64,000 nt of DNA from Sphaerotilus uruguayifluvii (GTDB taxonomy: Bacteria > Pseudomonadota > Gammaproteobacteria > Burkholderiales > Burkholderiaceae_C). The stretch is taken from positions 186,001 to 250,000 of the forward strand of contig NZ_JABSNM010000002.1 of NCBI RefSeq assembly GCF_013294065.1, read 5' to 3'. The position numbers and the translations under genes are program-made. The notes beneath the pieces were generated by a model. The model was not told the origin of the DNA and made no database searches. It saw only the letters and a program-made list of their open reading frames with translations. Shown in pieces: positions 56,603 to 62,481 of this stretch. Within the stretch, counting starts at the first letter, position 1, and each line of letters starts with the position of its first letter.

Positions 56603-59600
56603 TCAGCCCACCGCGGCCATCAGCCGCTCGAAGGCCTGCTCGAACTGCACCAGGCCTTCGGCCTGCAGCTGCTCGCCCAGCCCGTCGAGGTCGATGCCGC
56701 AGCGGGCGGCGGCGGCCAGGGTGGCGCGAGCCTCGGTCAGCGCGGCGTCGAGCGTGCGCGCGGCCTGGCCGTGGTCGGCGAAGGCGGCCATCGTCGCGTC
56801 GGGCACGGTGTCGACGGTGTCGGGGCCGATCAGCGCCTCGACGTAGCGGGTGTCGCGCCAGGCCGGGTTCTTCACGCCGGTGCTGGCCCACAGGCAGGAC
56901 GGCGGACGGGCGCCGGCCGCGCGCAGCCCGGCGAACTCGCTGCCGCCGAAGCGGTCCAGCCACAGCGCATAGGCGTTGCGGGCGTTGGCGATGCCGACCT
57001 CGCCGCGCAGCGCCTCGGATCCGGCCGGCAGCAGGCTGTCGACCCGCGTGTCGACCCGGCTGACGAAGAGGCTGGCCACCGAGCGCACCCGGTCCACCGG
57101 CAGGCCGCGCTCCTGGCGGCGGCGCAGGCCCAGCTCGCAGGCCTCGAAGACCTGCAGCAGCTGGCGCGGCGAGAAGATCAGCGTGACGTTGATGTTGATG
57201 CCGTCGGCGATCGCGTCGGCGATCGCATCCAGGCATTCCGGCGTGGCCGGGATCTTGATCATCGCGTTCGGGCGGCCGATCTCGGCCCACAGGCGGCGTG
57301 CGGCCGCCAGCGTGCCGGCGCCGTCGCGCGACAGCCGCGGCGAGACCTCGAAGCTGACGAAGCCGGCGTCGCCCTCGGTGCGCTCGTGCAGCGGGCGCAG
57401 CACGTCGCAGGCGGCCTGCACGTCGGCCACGGCCAGGCGCTCGAAGCGGCGCTCCGGGTCGGGCTCCTCGGCGCGCAGCTGCGCCAGCGCCGGCGCGTAG
57501 GCCGCGTCCGAGGCGAAGGCCTGCGCGAAGATCGCCGGGTTGCTGGTGACGCCGGCGATGCCGTGCTCGTCGATCCAGCGCTGCAGCGCGCCGCTGGCCA
57601 CCAGTGTGCGCGAGAGCTGGTCGAGCCAGACCTGCTGGCCGTGGCGCGCGACCGCCTTCAGCGGGCTGTCCAGGCCGAGCACGCGCAGACCGGCCGCCGT
57701 GACGGCCTCGGCGGTGATGCCGAAGTGCTTGAAGAGCGCCGGGGCCGGCGCCGATTCGCCAAAGGTGTCCAGGCCGATCACCGCGCCGTCCAGGCCGACG
57801 ATCTCGCGCCAGCCCGAGGTGGCGCCGGCCTCGACCGCCACGCGCGGCACGCCGGCCGGCAGCACCGCTTCGCGCCAGGCGGCGTCCTGCGCCTTGAAGG
57901 CGAACAGCGACGGCAGCGAGACGACGCGGGCGCGCACGCCGCGCGCGGCGAGCTGCTCGCGTGCCTGCACGGCCAGCTGCACCTCGCTGCCGGTGGCGAC
58001 CAGCACGAGCTGCGGGCGCAGGCCCTGGGCTTCGCCCTCGGCCGGCAGCAGCACGTAGCCGCCGCGCTGGACAGCCGCAAGCTGCGCGGCGTCGCGCGGC
58101 TGGTGCGCCAGGTTCTGGCGGCTCAGGATCAGGCAGGTCGGGTGCGCCGTCGACTGCAGTGCGGCGGCCCAGGCGGCGCGCGTCTCGACGGCGTCGCAGG
58201 GGCGCCAGACGTCCATGTTCGGGATCAGGCGCAGCGTGGCGGTCTGCTCGACCGGCTGGTGGGTCGGGCCGTCCTCGCCCAGGCCGATCGAGTCGTGCGT
58301 GAAGACCTGGATGACCGGCTGCTTCATCAGCGCGGCCATGCGCAGCGCGTTGCGGGCGTACTCGCTGAACATCAGGAAGGTGCCGCCGAAGGCGCGGAAG
58401 CCCCCGTGCAGCGACACGCCGTTCATCACCGCGGCCATGCCGAACTCGCGCACGCCGTAGTGCAGGTAGTTGCCGCCCTGGCCGGCGCGCAGGCGCTCCG
58501 GCGTCACCGACACGCAGCCGGGCCAGTTGGTCAGGTTGGAGCCGGTCAGGTCGGCCGAGCCGCCGAGCAGCTCGGGCAGCGCGGGCGCGAAGGCGGCAAT
58601 CGACTCCTGGCTGGCCTTGCGGCTGGCGACGGTGGCGGCGCGCGTGTCGGCCTCCTGCACGGCGCGCTCGGCCAGGGCCGCGAAGCCTTCCGGCAGCCGG
58701 CCGGCCAGACGGCGCTCCAGCTCGACGGCCAGCGCCGGGTGGGCGGCCGCGTAGGCGTCGAAGCGACGCTGCCAGTCGCTGCAGGCGGCCTGGCCCTGTT
58801 CGCGGGCGTCCCAGCCAGCGCGCACGTCGTCGGGGATCTCGAAGGGGCCGTGCGCCCAGCCGAGTGCCGCCTTGGTGGCGGCGATCTCGGCTGCGCCCAG
58901 CGGCGCGCCGTGGCTGTCGTGCGTGCCGGCCTTGTTCGGCGAGCCGAAGCCGATCGTGGTGCGGCAGCAGATCAGCGTCGGGCGGGCGGTCTCGGCCTTG
59001 GCGGCGGCGATGGCCGCATCGAGCGCGGCGCTGTCATGGCCGTCGACGCCGCGCACCACATGCCAGCCGTAGGCCTCGAAACGGCCGGGGATGTCCTCGC
59101 TGAACCAACCCTCGACGTGGCCGTCGATCGAGATGCCGTTGTCGTCCCAGAAGGCGGTCAGCTTGCCCAGGCCCCAGGTGCCGGCCAGCGCGCAGGCCTC
59201 GTGGCTGACGCCTTCCATCAGGCAGCCGTCGCCCAGGAAGGCCCAGGTGCGGTGGTCGACGACCGCGTGGCCGGGGCGGTTGAATTCGGCCGCCAGCAGC
59301 TGCTCGGCCAGCGCCATGCCGACCGCGTTGGCGATGCCCTGACCCAGCGGGCCGGTGGTGGTCTCGACGCCCGGCGCGTAGCCCAGCTCCGGGTGGCCCG
59401 GCGTGCGGCTGTGCAGCTGGCGGAAGCTCTTCAGGTCGTCGATCGAGAGGTCGTAGCCGCTCAGGTGCAGCAGCCCGTAGAGCAGCATCGAGCCGTGGCC
59501 GTTCGAGAGCACGAAGCGGTCGCGGTCGGCCCAGTCGGGCGTGGCCGGGTCGTGCTTCAGGTGATGGCGCCAGAGCGACTCGGCGATGTCGGCCATGCCC

Positions 59601-59698
59601 ATCGGCATGCCGGGGTGGCCGGAGCCGGCCTGCTGGACGGCGTCCATCGCCAGCGCGCGCAGCGCGTGGGCCAGGGTTCGGCGGGAGGGAGAGGTCAT
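56603..59698 (-). CDS. Transketolase-transaldolase fusion protein
   Basis: One uninterrupted 1031-aa frame. Residues 1-about 675 are a complete transketolase (E. coli TktA is 663 aa): [40 protein letters not shown] (thiamine-PP/metal site at 157-169), E418 in [21 protein letters not shown]. Residues about 677-1031 are a complete long-type transaldolase: [25 protein letters not shown], Schiff-base Lys K815 in [36 protein letters not shown]. There is almost no linker. The two activities are consecutive in the non-oxidative pentose phosphate pathway. It is divergent from a SorC-type regulator with twin operators between. No stop or frameshift lies at the junction. Confidence 0.95.
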
Positions 59699-59771: not shown

Positions 59772-59785
59772 TGATCAAAAGATCA
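59772..59785. promoter_or_regulatory. Operator copy 1 (TGATCAAAAGATCA)
   Basis: Arms TGATC/GATCA around AAAA, 74 nt upstream of the fusion-gene start. Identical to the copy at 59921. Confidence 0.75.
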
Positions 59786-59920: not shown

Positions 59921-59934
59921 TGATCAAAAGATCA
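59921..59934. promoter_or_regulatory. Operator copy 2 (TGATCAAAAGATCA)
   Basis: Exact repeat of the 14-mer at 59772, 149 bp away and 37 nt before the SorC-type regulator. A related half-site TGATCAAAAAA begins at 59902. The stretch 59760-59940 is AT-rich and holds no gene. Confidence 0.75.
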
Positions 59935-59970: not shown

Positions 59971-61002
59971 ATGGCGGCCATGAGCACCCGCGTCCCCAGT
60001 CCGTCCCCGGCCCCCGGCCCTTCGCCCTCCGCCGCGTCCTCTTCGACCTCGATGAGCACCGAGGAGCTGACCCGCATCGCCACGCTCTACTACGTCGACG
60101 GCCAGACGCAGGAGGAGCTCTCGCGCCGCTTCGGCATCAGCCGCGCCACCGTCGGGCGCATGCTGAAGAAGGCGCAGGATCTCGGCATCGTCGAGATCCG
60201 GGTGCAGCATCACCCTTCGCTCACGGTCGACCTCGAGCGCGAGCTGGTGCGCCGCTTCGGCATCAGCCGCGCGCTGCTGTCGGTCGACCATGCCGATGCC
60301 GAGAAGCAGCGCGCGCTGCTGGCCGCGCTGGTGGCCACCTGGCTGGACCGCAACCTCAGCGACGGCGCGATCGTGGCGGTCGGCATGGGCCGCAATGTCA
60401 GCGCGGTCAGCGAGCACGCCATGCCGGCCACGCGCCGGGCGGCGACCTTCGTCTGCGCCATCGGCGGCAGCTACCGCGGCGGCGAGACCATGAACCCCGA
60501 CCACATCTGCCGCCGGCTGGCCGCGCGCTTCGGCGGCGAGAGCGAGACGCTCTACGCGCCGGCGATGGTCGACGACATCACGCTGCGCGCCGCGCTTCTG
60601 GAGAACGACACCGTGCGCCAGACGCTGGACAAGGCGCGCCGTGCCGACATCGCGCTGGTGGGCATCGGCGACATGAGCGAGGACAGCAACATGGTGCGCA
60701 TGGGCTGGTTCAGCGCCCAGGAGATCACGGAAGCCAAGCGCCAGGGCATCGTCGGCGACGTGATGGGCTACGACTTCATCGACATCCACGGCCGCTCGGC
60801 GATGGGACCGATCCAGGGCCGGGTGGTCGGGCTGAGCACCCGGGACCTGACGCGCATTCCCAACGTCATCGCCATCGCCGGCGAGTCGAGCAAGACCACC
60901 GCGATCCTGGGCGCGCTGCGCACCGGCACCATCGACACGCTGGCCACCACCGCCACCAACGCGATGGCGGTGCTGCACCTGGACGACGCGACCCGGCGCT
61001 GA
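59971..61002 (+). CDS. SorC/DeoR-type sugar-binding transcriptional regulator
   Basis: 343 aa. N-terminal HTH: LTRIATLYYVDGQTQEELSRRFGISRATVGRML in outline (about residues 33-65). C-terminal sugar-phosphate-binding domain: GAIVAVGMGRNVSAV, VCAIGGSY, ADIALVGIGDMSED, GDVMGYDFID. Such regulators sense phosphorylated sugars. It is divergent from the transketolase-transaldolase gene and most likely binds the two TGATCAAAAGATCA sites. The first 30 residues are Ser/Pro-rich, so ATG 60052 may be the true start. Confidence 0.88.
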   Translation: MAAMSTRVPSPSPAPGPSPSAASSSTSMSTEELTRIATLYYVDGQTQEELSRRFGISRATVGRMLKKAQDLGIVEIRVQHHPSLTVDLERELVRRFGISRALLSVDHADAEKQRALLAALVATWLDRNLSDGAIVAVGMGRNVSAVSEHAMPATRRAATFVCAIGGSYRGGETMNPDHICRRLAARFGGESETLYAPAMVDDITLRAALLENDTVRQTLDKARRADIALVGIGDMSEDSNMVRMGWFSAQEITEAKRQGIVGDVMGYDFIDIHGRSAMGPIQGRVVGLSTRDLTRIPNVIAIAGESSKTTAILGALRTGTIDTLATTATNAMAVLHLDDATRR

Positions 61003-61011
61003 CCCCCGGAA

Positions 61012-62397
61012 TCAGGACGCGGCCGCGATCGCCTGCGGCGGCTGGTTCCAGTGCTCGCCGTGGACGGCGGCGGCATACAGCCGCACCACCACCGAGCCCA
61101 GCAGCCCGTGCAGAACGTCGCCCTGCGCGGCACGGCGCACGATGATCGCGCTCAGCGAGCCCTTGGCCGACAGTTCCTGGATCGCCCGGTCGACCCAGAC
61201 CTTGCGCTGCTCCGGCGCCAGCGCGATCAGTTCCTGGCGGATCTCGGCGATGCGGGCGTTGAGCCAGCGCGCCTGGGCCTCGGCATCGGGCTCGGCGCGT
61301 GCGGTCGGCGCATGCACCGCCGGCTCGTGAACCGCCGGAACCGTCGCCTCGACCGGCGCCCGCGCCACCGGCGGGTCCGCGGCGGGTGCGGTCGGCGTCG
61401 CGACGGTCTCGTTGCGCAGCAGCGTGCGCAGATAGGAATAGGCGTTGTCCAGCGGCGCGAGCCGGTTGTTGGCCACCCGGCGCTCGAGCACGTCGAGCTG
61501 GGCGCGCACCCGGTCGTCGCCGAACTCGGTCAGCAGGCCCTCGAGCTTGATCTCGCGGATGCCCAGCGACTCGGCGCGCAGCACCAGGTTGGCATCGACC
61601 GGCGCGGCCAGCCCGGCCGCCGGCCGCGCTGCAGCCAGTCGCCGGCGCACCGCGAACTGCACCTCGACCACCGCCCTGCCCTGCTTGTGCTCGATCAGCT
61701 CGACCTCGAGATCGGTCTCGCGGTTGATCTCGTCGATGGCCGGACGCACCCGCTCGGACTTGAACTTGCGCCACTCGCGCCGGTCGGCACCGCCCGGCGC
61801 CTGATTGAGCGCATCCGACCACCAGGCCGCCGGCTTGCGGCTGGTCAGCCCGGACGGGTTGTCGCGGTAGCGTGCGCAGATCTCGTACAGCGCCACAGCG
61901 GTGTAGGTGCCCAGCCGCGCCAGCACGTCCAGATCGATCGAGGCCCAGCGCTGCGGCTCGCGCAGCACCGTCATGATCGAGGGGGGATAGGACCAGGACA
62001 CCCAGTTCTCGCCGTTCCGGACCTCGATCGCCACCTCCGACAGCATCGAGAAGCCGCGCCACTTCACTCCGTCGCCCGGCGCGGTCGACTCCCAGTCGAC
62101 CTCCAGGCCACGCATCTCGCGCAGATAGCGCTTGGCCGCGGTGCGGTCCTCGCCGCTGGAGCCGGTGGTGCGCAGCAGCGCCGGCAGCGGCGCCTCGAAC
62201 ATGAAGTCGGCCTGAGGCATCGCGTCCATCGCCGCCAGCCGGGCCTGGGCCACCTGCAGCATCGCGTTGTACAGGCGACGGCCGGTCAGCGTGACCCGCT
62301 TCGAGCGCGGGATCATCACGATCATCTCGTGAGGCTTGCGAAGTTCGGGGCCGTCGACCGGATCCCGAGGATCGAGCGAGTTCATGGCGGAGCTCAT
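61012..62397 (-). CDS. Plasmid/chromid replication initiator (Rep_3 family)
   Basis: 461 aa from ATG 62397. Initiator-replication-protein features: an N-terminal KPHEMIVMIPRSKRVTLTGRRLYNAML in outline, a winged helix 1 region (ALLRTTGSSGEDRTAAKRYL), SYPPSIMTVLREPQRWASIDLDVLARLGTYTAVALYEI in outline, and a second winged helix with KFKSERVRPAIDEINRETDLEVELIEHKQGR in part. C-terminal tail is Ala/Pro-rich. It binds iterons and opens the origin. GTG 62436 would lie inside the upstream inverted repeat, so the ATG is preferred; ATG 62385 is also possible. It is convergent with the SorC-type gene (9 nt apart). Confidence 0.87.
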   Translation of the reverse strand: MSSAMNSLDPRDPVDGPELRKPHEMIVMIPRSKRVTLTGRRLYNAMLQVAQARLAAMDAMPQADFMFEAPLPALLRTTGSSGEDRTAAKRYLREMRGLEVDWESTAPGDGVKWRGFSMLSEVAIEVRNGENWVSWSYPPSIMTVLREPQRWASIDLDVLARLGTYTAVALYEICARYRDNPSGLTSRKPAAWWSDALNQAPGGADRREWRKFKSERVRPAIDEINRETDLEVELIEHKQGRAVVEVQFAVRRRLAAARPAAGLAAPVDANLVLRAESLGIREIKLEGLLTEFGDDRVRAQLDVLERRVANNRLAPLDNAYSYLRTLLRNETVATPTAPAADPPVARAPVEATVPAVHEPAVHAPTARAEPDAEAQARWLNARIAEIRQELIALAPEQRKVWVDRAIQELSAKGSLSAIIVRRAAQGDVLHGLLGSVVVRLYAAAVHGEHWNQPPQAIAAAS

Positions 62398-62415
62398 CTG
62401 GGGGTCGCCATGATA

Positions 62416-62435
62416 TGTCCACGCCACCGTGGACA
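62416..62435. promoter_or_regulatory. Inverted repeat before rep (probable autoregulatory site)
   Basis: TGTCCACG-CCAC-CGTGGACA, perfect 8-bp arms, 18 nt upstream of the rep ATG. The CGTGGACA half resembles the iteron ends (CCCGGACA, CCTGGACA), as is usual when Rep dimers repress their own gene. Confidence 0.65.
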
Positions 62436-62481
62436 CAAATCCGCACAGAGCCCCCGGTGTCGGCGCTCCTGATCGAGAGGC

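Follow-up and report, generated by a model that had tools for sequence, protein, structure and literature searches.

A rare transketolase–transaldolase fusion beside a SorC-family regulator in Sphaerotilus, a probable accessory enzyme of peripheral sugar metabolism

In the window analysed here, a 64,000-nucleotide stretch of the genome of Sphaerotilus uruguayifluvii (contig NZ_JABSNM010000002.1, positions 186,001 to 250,000), one open reading frame (ORF) on the minus strand encodes a transketolase (TKT) followed by a long-type transaldolase (TAL), and the gene of a SorC-family regulator lies divergently beside it (Table 1). Pfam placed Transketolase_N at residues 7-336 of the fusion protein, Transket_pyr at 357-531, Transketolase_C_1 at 546-662 and TAL_FSA at 690-1029; by the combined Pfam and NCBIfam matches, the transketolase is complete and spans residues of about 7-668, and the long-type transaldolase, likewise complete, spans about 678-1030. 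Each half scored above the cut-offs of the curated models for its enzyme, and the TAL half reached only 24.5 bits on the talAB model, indicating that the fused TAL is not of the talAB type. These matches bear out the first-pass annotation of this DNA, which had described two complete enzymes on one chain with intact catalytic residues and almost no linker. Both E418 in the TKT half and K815 in the TAL half are present in the sequence, as are H28, H68, H102, D157, N187, H260, H263, R360, D383, S387, D476, H480, R527 and D693, all of which we take to be catalytic positions by comparison with E. coli TktA and Neisseria TAL.

Table 1. Features of the fusion locus (window positions) and of the other fusions recovered in the survey (positions within the named locus)
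Feature	Position	Strand	Basis or remark
TKT-TAL fusion gene	56603..59698	minus (59698 -> 56603)	ATG start, 1031 aa + stop; ORF, Pfam/NCBIfam matches, kept in relatives
Transketolase half, residues 1-673	57680..59698	minus	TIGR00232, 917 bits (cut-off 682); best PDB matches by sequence and fold: E. coli, Vibrio and Haemophilus transketolases
Linker, residues 674-678	57665..57679	minus	Space between helix 663-673 and helix 679-686 (AlphaFold2 model)
Long-type transaldolase half, residues 679-1031, Schiff-base lysine K815	56606..57664	minus	NF002881, 436 bits (cut-off 367); TIGR00876, 286.5 bits (cut-off 233.75)
SorC-family sugar-binding transcriptional regulator, divergent from fusion	59971..61002 (start may be 60052)	plus	PF04198, 237.6 bits (cut-off 27)
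Palindrome TGATCAAAAGATCA, 14 bp, candidate operator 1	59772..59785		2 matches in 64 kb
Palindrome TGATCAAAAGATCA, 14 bp, candidate operator 2	59921..59934		Identical to candidate operator 1
TAL-first fusions	L104:2900-5896, L137:9648-12611, L203, L204	minus (L104, L137)	
RNase E/G-TAL fusions	L106:1826-5551, L107:4583-8332, L108:2228-5872		

An AlphaFold2 model of the fusion, built on a 36-row alignment, had a mean pLDDT of 83.6 and a pTM of 0.67, with all segments of pLDDT below 50 located within the TKT part. In this model the helix that closes TKT and the helix that opens TAL are separated by about five residues, in agreement with the near absence of a linker noted at first; the length of this segment differs from fusion to fusion. 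When the TKT half was compared by Foldseek, it was placed on the transketolases of E. coli, Vibrio and Haemophilus, and the best 50 rows listed were transketolases, with no transaldolase among them. By sequence, the solved structures closest to the TAL half were 7bbx, 7oey, 3clm and 7bbw, presumably all transaldolases of Neisseria gonorrhoeae; this nearest solved relative (3clm, 7bbx) differs from the fused TAL in being a stand-alone protein. We take Lys8 and Cys38 of the Neisseria enzyme to be the residues of its Lys-Cys NOS redox bridge. The positions aligned to them are occupied by Ala684 and Ala715 in the fusion, so that redox switch should not operate in the fused TAL. The TKT part is presumably a homodimer. 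The explanation that we favour, and consider rather probable as a whole, is that the protein would be a genuine bifunctional enzyme in which a transketolase dependent on thiamine diphosphate and a long-type, Schiff-base transaldolase act from the same chain. The channelling of intermediates envisaged in the first-pass annotation would be a hypothetical consequence of such a fusion.

A stop codon or frameshift at about position 57670 had been the main concern raised about this frame. It is excluded because seven other fused sequences exist, six of them full length and with an open frame (those of S. sulfidivorans D-501 and D-507, S. natans, S. hippei, G009 and Ideonella livida), and, given these intact frames, a sequencing frameshift or assembly artefact was discarded as the source of the fusion. 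The gene was found in 6 of the 13 genomes of the genus: the window genome, S. sulfidivorans D-501 (G005, 96% identity to the window fusion), S. natans ATCC 13338 (G010, 94%), S. hippei DSM 566 (G002, 75%), a single-contig genome of the genus (G009, 75%) and a metagenome-assembled genome (MAG) of the genus (G006), in which a contig end falls inside the fusion gene. In S. sulfidivorans D-507 the fusion is carried by the 303-kb plasmid pSna507_unt10 (NZ_CP035710.1) and has the same sequence as the D-501 copy, with 96% identity to the window fusion, and the fusion of I. livida shows 82% identity in TKT and 76% in TAL. Pairwise dN/dS values (Nei-Gojobori) among the window, S. natans and S. sulfidivorans sequences were 0.15-0.18 for TKT and 0.18-0.24 for TAL, and those between S. 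hippei and G009 were 0.17 and 0.31, respectively; more distant pairs gave 0.26-0.58, a range in which dS is unreliable owing to the high G+C content. Purifying selection acts on both halves.

The divergent regulator that had been proposed for the fusion proved to be of the SorC type, according to its match to PF04198 and to the overlapping N-terminal helix-turn-helix models at 30-80. Its scores were below the equivalog cut-offs for DeoR (NF053881, 151.6 vs 420) and LsrR (NF011947, 126.9 vs 486). A SorC gene stands beside the fusion, or beside the gene module described below, in the six relatives with enough flanking sequence (L029, L031, L033, L035, L036 and L067). With up to one mismatch allowed, the palindrome TGATCAAAAGATCA occurs in the window just at the two intergenic sites between the SorC gene and the fusion, with 0 expected, and both sites are likewise present in S. 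natans. Judging from this arrangement, we regard the palindromes as candidate operators, and the fusion is probably inducible under the control of the SorC regulator.

The fusion locus is on contig C2 (384,654 bases) of the 4.89-Mb window genome, and the search for separate tkt and tal copies recommended in the first-pass annotation revealed two further full transketolases (C10 and C12) and two further TAL_FSA genes (C11 and C1), as well as a 938-aa frame of C30 that matches Transketolase_N weakly. The TAL of C11 is of the talAB type (432.8 bits, cut-off 396.2), and that of C1 is FSA-like yet below the cut-off (122.2 vs 246). Across the genus, a TAL_FSA match was present in all 13 genomes and a talB-size copy in 12 of them. 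With these further TKTs (two) and TAL_FSA genes (two) retained in the window genome, the fusion is an accessory, extra copy. On the other side of the SorC regulator, the window contains a plasmid-type replication initiator gene (Rep3_C, 61012-62436) that adjoins it, followed by a ParA-like gene, as read from the sequence, that extends from about 63367 to the window end. The presence of these two genes suggests that C2 is, or includes, a secondary replicon.

The origin of the two halves was examined in a tree of 57 TAL domains and a tree of 32 TKTs, each including six from fusions. The fusion TALs formed one clade (100/100, the same as in an earlier tree) beside a stand-alone TAL from another family of the same order (99/93; 98/96 in the earlier tree), and together with this neighbour they were nested in a larger clade of stand-alone TALs. 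Similarly, the fusion TKTs formed one clade (100/99), which lies among TKTs from other families in the order and is separate from the chromosomal TKTs of Sphaerotilus (100/99). As each half forms a single clade, the TKT-first fusions likely derive, on this phylogenetic evidence, from a single fusion event. Derivation from the tkt and tal genes of the host itself was considered and rejected: the tree rules out the host TKT, and neither the talAB-type TAL of C11 nor the FSA-like TAL of C1 can have supplied the long-type TAL of the fusion. In their assemblies, the genes of the closest unfused relatives of TAL and TKT do not lie next to each other. In the TKT tree, I. livida groups with the S. natans type (100/100), within the diversity of Sphaerotilus, and this placement hints at horizontal movement. 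The idea that both trees unite I. livida with the S. natans type was dropped, given that the TAL trees place it differently, with weak support.

The frequency of such fusions was surveyed in overlapping samples of genomes, in which phyla beyond that of the window were covered through a plasmid collection only. The TAL half had matches at E <= 1e-40 in 24 of 399 genomes of the family, in at least 194 of 399 of the order and in 34 of 398 of the phylum, and the long-type TAL model was exceeded in 106 of the 369 class genomes. Among the loci that were fetched and classified, TKT-first fusions were found only in Sphaerotilus, in I. livida and in the contig-cut MAG of the same genus. A scan of the contigs of 84,980 species with two peptide patterns, which gives a lower bound and not a census, recovered eight loci, comprising five fusions (one of them cut) and three stand-alone TALs. 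The TKT-first order was rare within the sampled genomes; the first-pass annotation had not foreseen the opposite order, TAL-TKT, which occurs in four other genomes in frames of 987-1015 aa, identified by Pfam in G058 and G459 and by tblastn in a single open frame in G122 and G1205. These TAL-first proteins resemble the fusion in joining both enzymes in one frame of about 1000 aa with a short interdomain gap; they differ in domain order, in their short-type TKT, which is 28-30% identical to the TKT studied here, and in their TAL, which belongs to another clade (100/100). The TKT part of G459 shares 65-66% identity with those of G058, G122 and G1205, and on a common or separate origin of the four the two TAL trees disagree.

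At many loci tkt immediately precedes tal as a separate gene. These neighbours share the order of the fusion and differ from it in yielding separate proteins, either with a stop between them in the same frame (L074, L078 and L095) or in different frames (L147, L148 and others). In the plasmid collection, 28 records had one place matching over at least 80% of the query; in all six of those fetched besides Sphaerotilus (H3, H5, H8, H12, H21 and H23; L230-L235), tkt and tal are in separate frames. TAL-phosphoglucose isomerase (PGI) fusions were frequent among the surveyed loci. The bifunctional TAL/PGI (NF007080) is comparable in that a long-type TAL is fused to a central sugar enzyme, and the TAL half gave 409 bits on this model; its partner, however, lies behind TAL, whereas transketolase is in front here, and the fusion is excluded from that family by the cut-off of 712 and by the absence of a PF00342 PGI domain. 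As described in PMC11237513, a thaumarchaeal protein likewise fuses non-oxidative pentose phosphate enzymes, although with a split transketolase, the N-half of which is joined to a different partner, ribulose-phosphate 3-epimerase. We also observed a long-type TAL fused in frame behind RNase E/G in 3 of the 369 class genomes (G297, G409 and G503; frames of 1214-1249 aa); these TAL domains group in a single clade (100/99), with the catalytic lysine retained. The first-pass annotation did not recall a characterised TKT-TAL fusion, and in Creative Commons (CC)-licensed PMC text we found no description of one in either order. Genes for transaldolase and transketolase are often co-localised, according to PMC5702140, so a fusion between them is not startling. 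The fusion is rare and new as a combination, yet it is made of ordinary known parts.

In four loci from three species, S. sulfidivorans D-507 (L029) and D-501 (L031), S. hippei (L035) and G009 (L036), the genes are arranged in the order sorC-rpiB//dhaKL-TKT-TAL. This module is kept in I. livida (L067), with a gene for a TRAP binding protein inserted between rpiB and dhaKL. Dak1 and RpiB-family matches were detected in the same 4 of the 13 genus genomes (G002, G005, G009 and G012); there were none in the window genome or in S. natans, where the fusion is accompanied by sorC only, and none in G006, a genome that is 68% complete. A motif related to the palindrome and looser than it, TGAKCRNNTGMKCA, had matches in 11 of 229 loci, appearing as spaced pairs in the rpiB//dhaKL intergenic region of L035 and L036 (and of overlapping copies of those loci), twice in L067, and once in L136 and its copy L042. 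G012 carries sorC-rpiB//dhaKL without the fusion (L136:1536-13070, L142:8017-14868) in an apparently polyol-related setting with two SorC regulators in all; the neighbouring genes, as read, encode an ABC transporter of polyol type, a kinase of the FGGY family, a FucA-like class II aldolase and a GlpD-like dehydrogenase, and no match above its cut-off among them names a specific sugar. The module context, the sharing of the fusion by several Sphaerotilus species and I. livida, and its plasmid location in one strain are points beyond the first-pass annotation.

The RpiB-like proteins of L031, L036 and L136 scored 131.7-133.8 bits on the canonical rpiB equivalog TIGR01120, under its cut-off of 138.65, and 166.7-169.1 bits on the D-erythrulose-4-phosphate isomerase (DerI) model NF051858, under its cut-off of 240 yet above their rpiB score. 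The DhaKL kinases of L031 and L136 missed the glycerone-kinase equivalog TIGR02361 (338.8 and 347.6 bits, cut-off 574.95), and no tetrulose-kinase model was among their matches. We propose that the SorC-family regulator would sense a sugar phosphate and control the accessory, probably inducible fusion. Where the module is complete, the DhaKL-type kinase would phosphorylate an imported ketose, the RpiB-type isomerase would convert the product, and the fusion would pass the result into central metabolism; as a best guess, the intermediate would be a tetrulose phosphate converted to erythrose 4-phosphate (E4P), and the fusion would be the exit step of a tetrulose/polyol or related pathway. By our own stoichiometry, 3 E4P yield fructose 6-phosphate and 2 glyceraldehyde 3-phosphate only when TAL, TKT and the pentose-phosphate isomerase and epimerase work together, and since this route needs TAL and TKT jointly, one chain would supply both transferases in a fixed ratio. 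In the Brucella erythritol pathway, as described in PMC11508834, E4P enters the pentose phosphate pathway through one Tal and two Tkt reactions. According to PMC12780249, there are no reports of transporters or kinases specific for tetroses.

Several observations weigh against this proposal. The window genome and S. natans lack the kinase and the isomerase, and in its module form the pathway cannot run there, so in the window strain the fusion can only add transferase capacity. The same isomerases that miss the DerI cut-off pass the broad RpiB subfamily model NF004051 (169.8-170.7 vs 135), as do the two kinases with the broad DhaKL family model NF011049 (633.8 and 629.6 vs 492); as the partners miss the specific models and pass only broad ones, the tetrulose assignment is a lean that falls short of a match. 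Other polyols are allowed by the genes for an FGGY kinase, an aldolase and a GlpD-like protein that lie near the module of G012. The motif TGAKCRNNTGMKCA also matches three unrelated loci (L039, L135 and L158) and is absent from the loci of S. sulfidivorans. A link to the LysR, SDR, TRAP, TIM-barrel and split-transketolase genes near the module was dropped, the split transketolase being too widespread in the genus. With these points taken into account, we still find it somewhat probable that the fusion would be a bifunctional accessory enzyme, probably inducible, with a tetrulose-type pathway as the best guess for its role.

A different role would be that of a general booster of the pentose phosphate pathway, that is, an extra inducible non-oxidative enzyme for growth on pentoses or for the Calvin cycle, with dhaKL and rpiB as incidental neighbours. 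The window genome and S. natans argue for it, for they keep the regulator and the fusion only, still under purifying selection (dN/dS between these two genomes, both without Dak1 and RpiB matches, 0.18 for TKT and 0.19 for TAL). The Calvin cycle does not need transaldolase, however, and four Sphaerotilus loci and that of I. livida hold kinase, isomerase and fusion together. In favour of the booster, PMC13300288 reports that the genus fixes CO2 by this cycle with a gene list that includes transketolase. We consider such a general role unlikely, though worth keeping in view; what the module suggests is a peripheral pathway for sugars more than a part in overall pentose-phosphate flux. It seems extremely unlikely that a lost stop or a sequencing error joined two genes into a non-functional or decaying product. 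At L029:15001-18096, on NZ_CP035710.1, the intact fusion ORF has no protein entry in the PLSDB gene table, and the locus tags skip RS19635, which may be a pseudogene flag in a table that is incomplete by its own description. Against decay, the frame is open on that same plasmid and in the other full-length sequences, dN/dS is far under 1 in both halves, and the fusion has been kept across divergence to about 75% identity.

The gene content of the module is also compatible with a dihydroxyacetone (xylulose monophosphate) cycle in methylotrophic Sphaerotilus, in which the TKT half would act on formaldehyde as dihydroxyacetone synthase, DhaKL would phosphorylate dihydroxyacetone, and RpiB with TAL/TKT would regenerate xylulose 5-phosphate. 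According to PMC13300288, Sphaerotilus strains grow on methanol without hxlAB and with an incomplete serine cycle, but on the basis of expression and enzyme data the paper ascribes assimilation chiefly to the Calvin cycle; in its main text the terms transaldolase, dihydroxyacetone, xylulose and fusion do not occur. Moreover, the TKT half is by sequence a standard TktA-like enzyme, a Dak1 match is found in neither the window strain nor S. natans, and directly beside the module no methanol dehydrogenase gene was recognised, an iron-containing alcohol dehydrogenase of unassigned type lying about 12 kb away in L029. We therefore judge this cycle very unlikely, and it is highly doubtful that the module would be a transferable bacterial version of it, with the fused TKT as dihydroxyacetone synthase and a formaldehyde route beyond the published pathway survey.

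If the dihydroxyacetone cycle were nevertheless true, it would be a new route for a genus in which growth as a methylotroph was not described until 2026 (PMC13300288). For the tetrulose-type pathway that we prefer, the linked kinase and isomerase provide a concrete lead to the catabolism of tetroses and tetruloses. More generally, the fusion offers a natural experiment on whether two enzymes of the pentose phosphate pathway gain from being joined on one chain, in which unfused relatives can serve as controls and the two domain orders can be compared.

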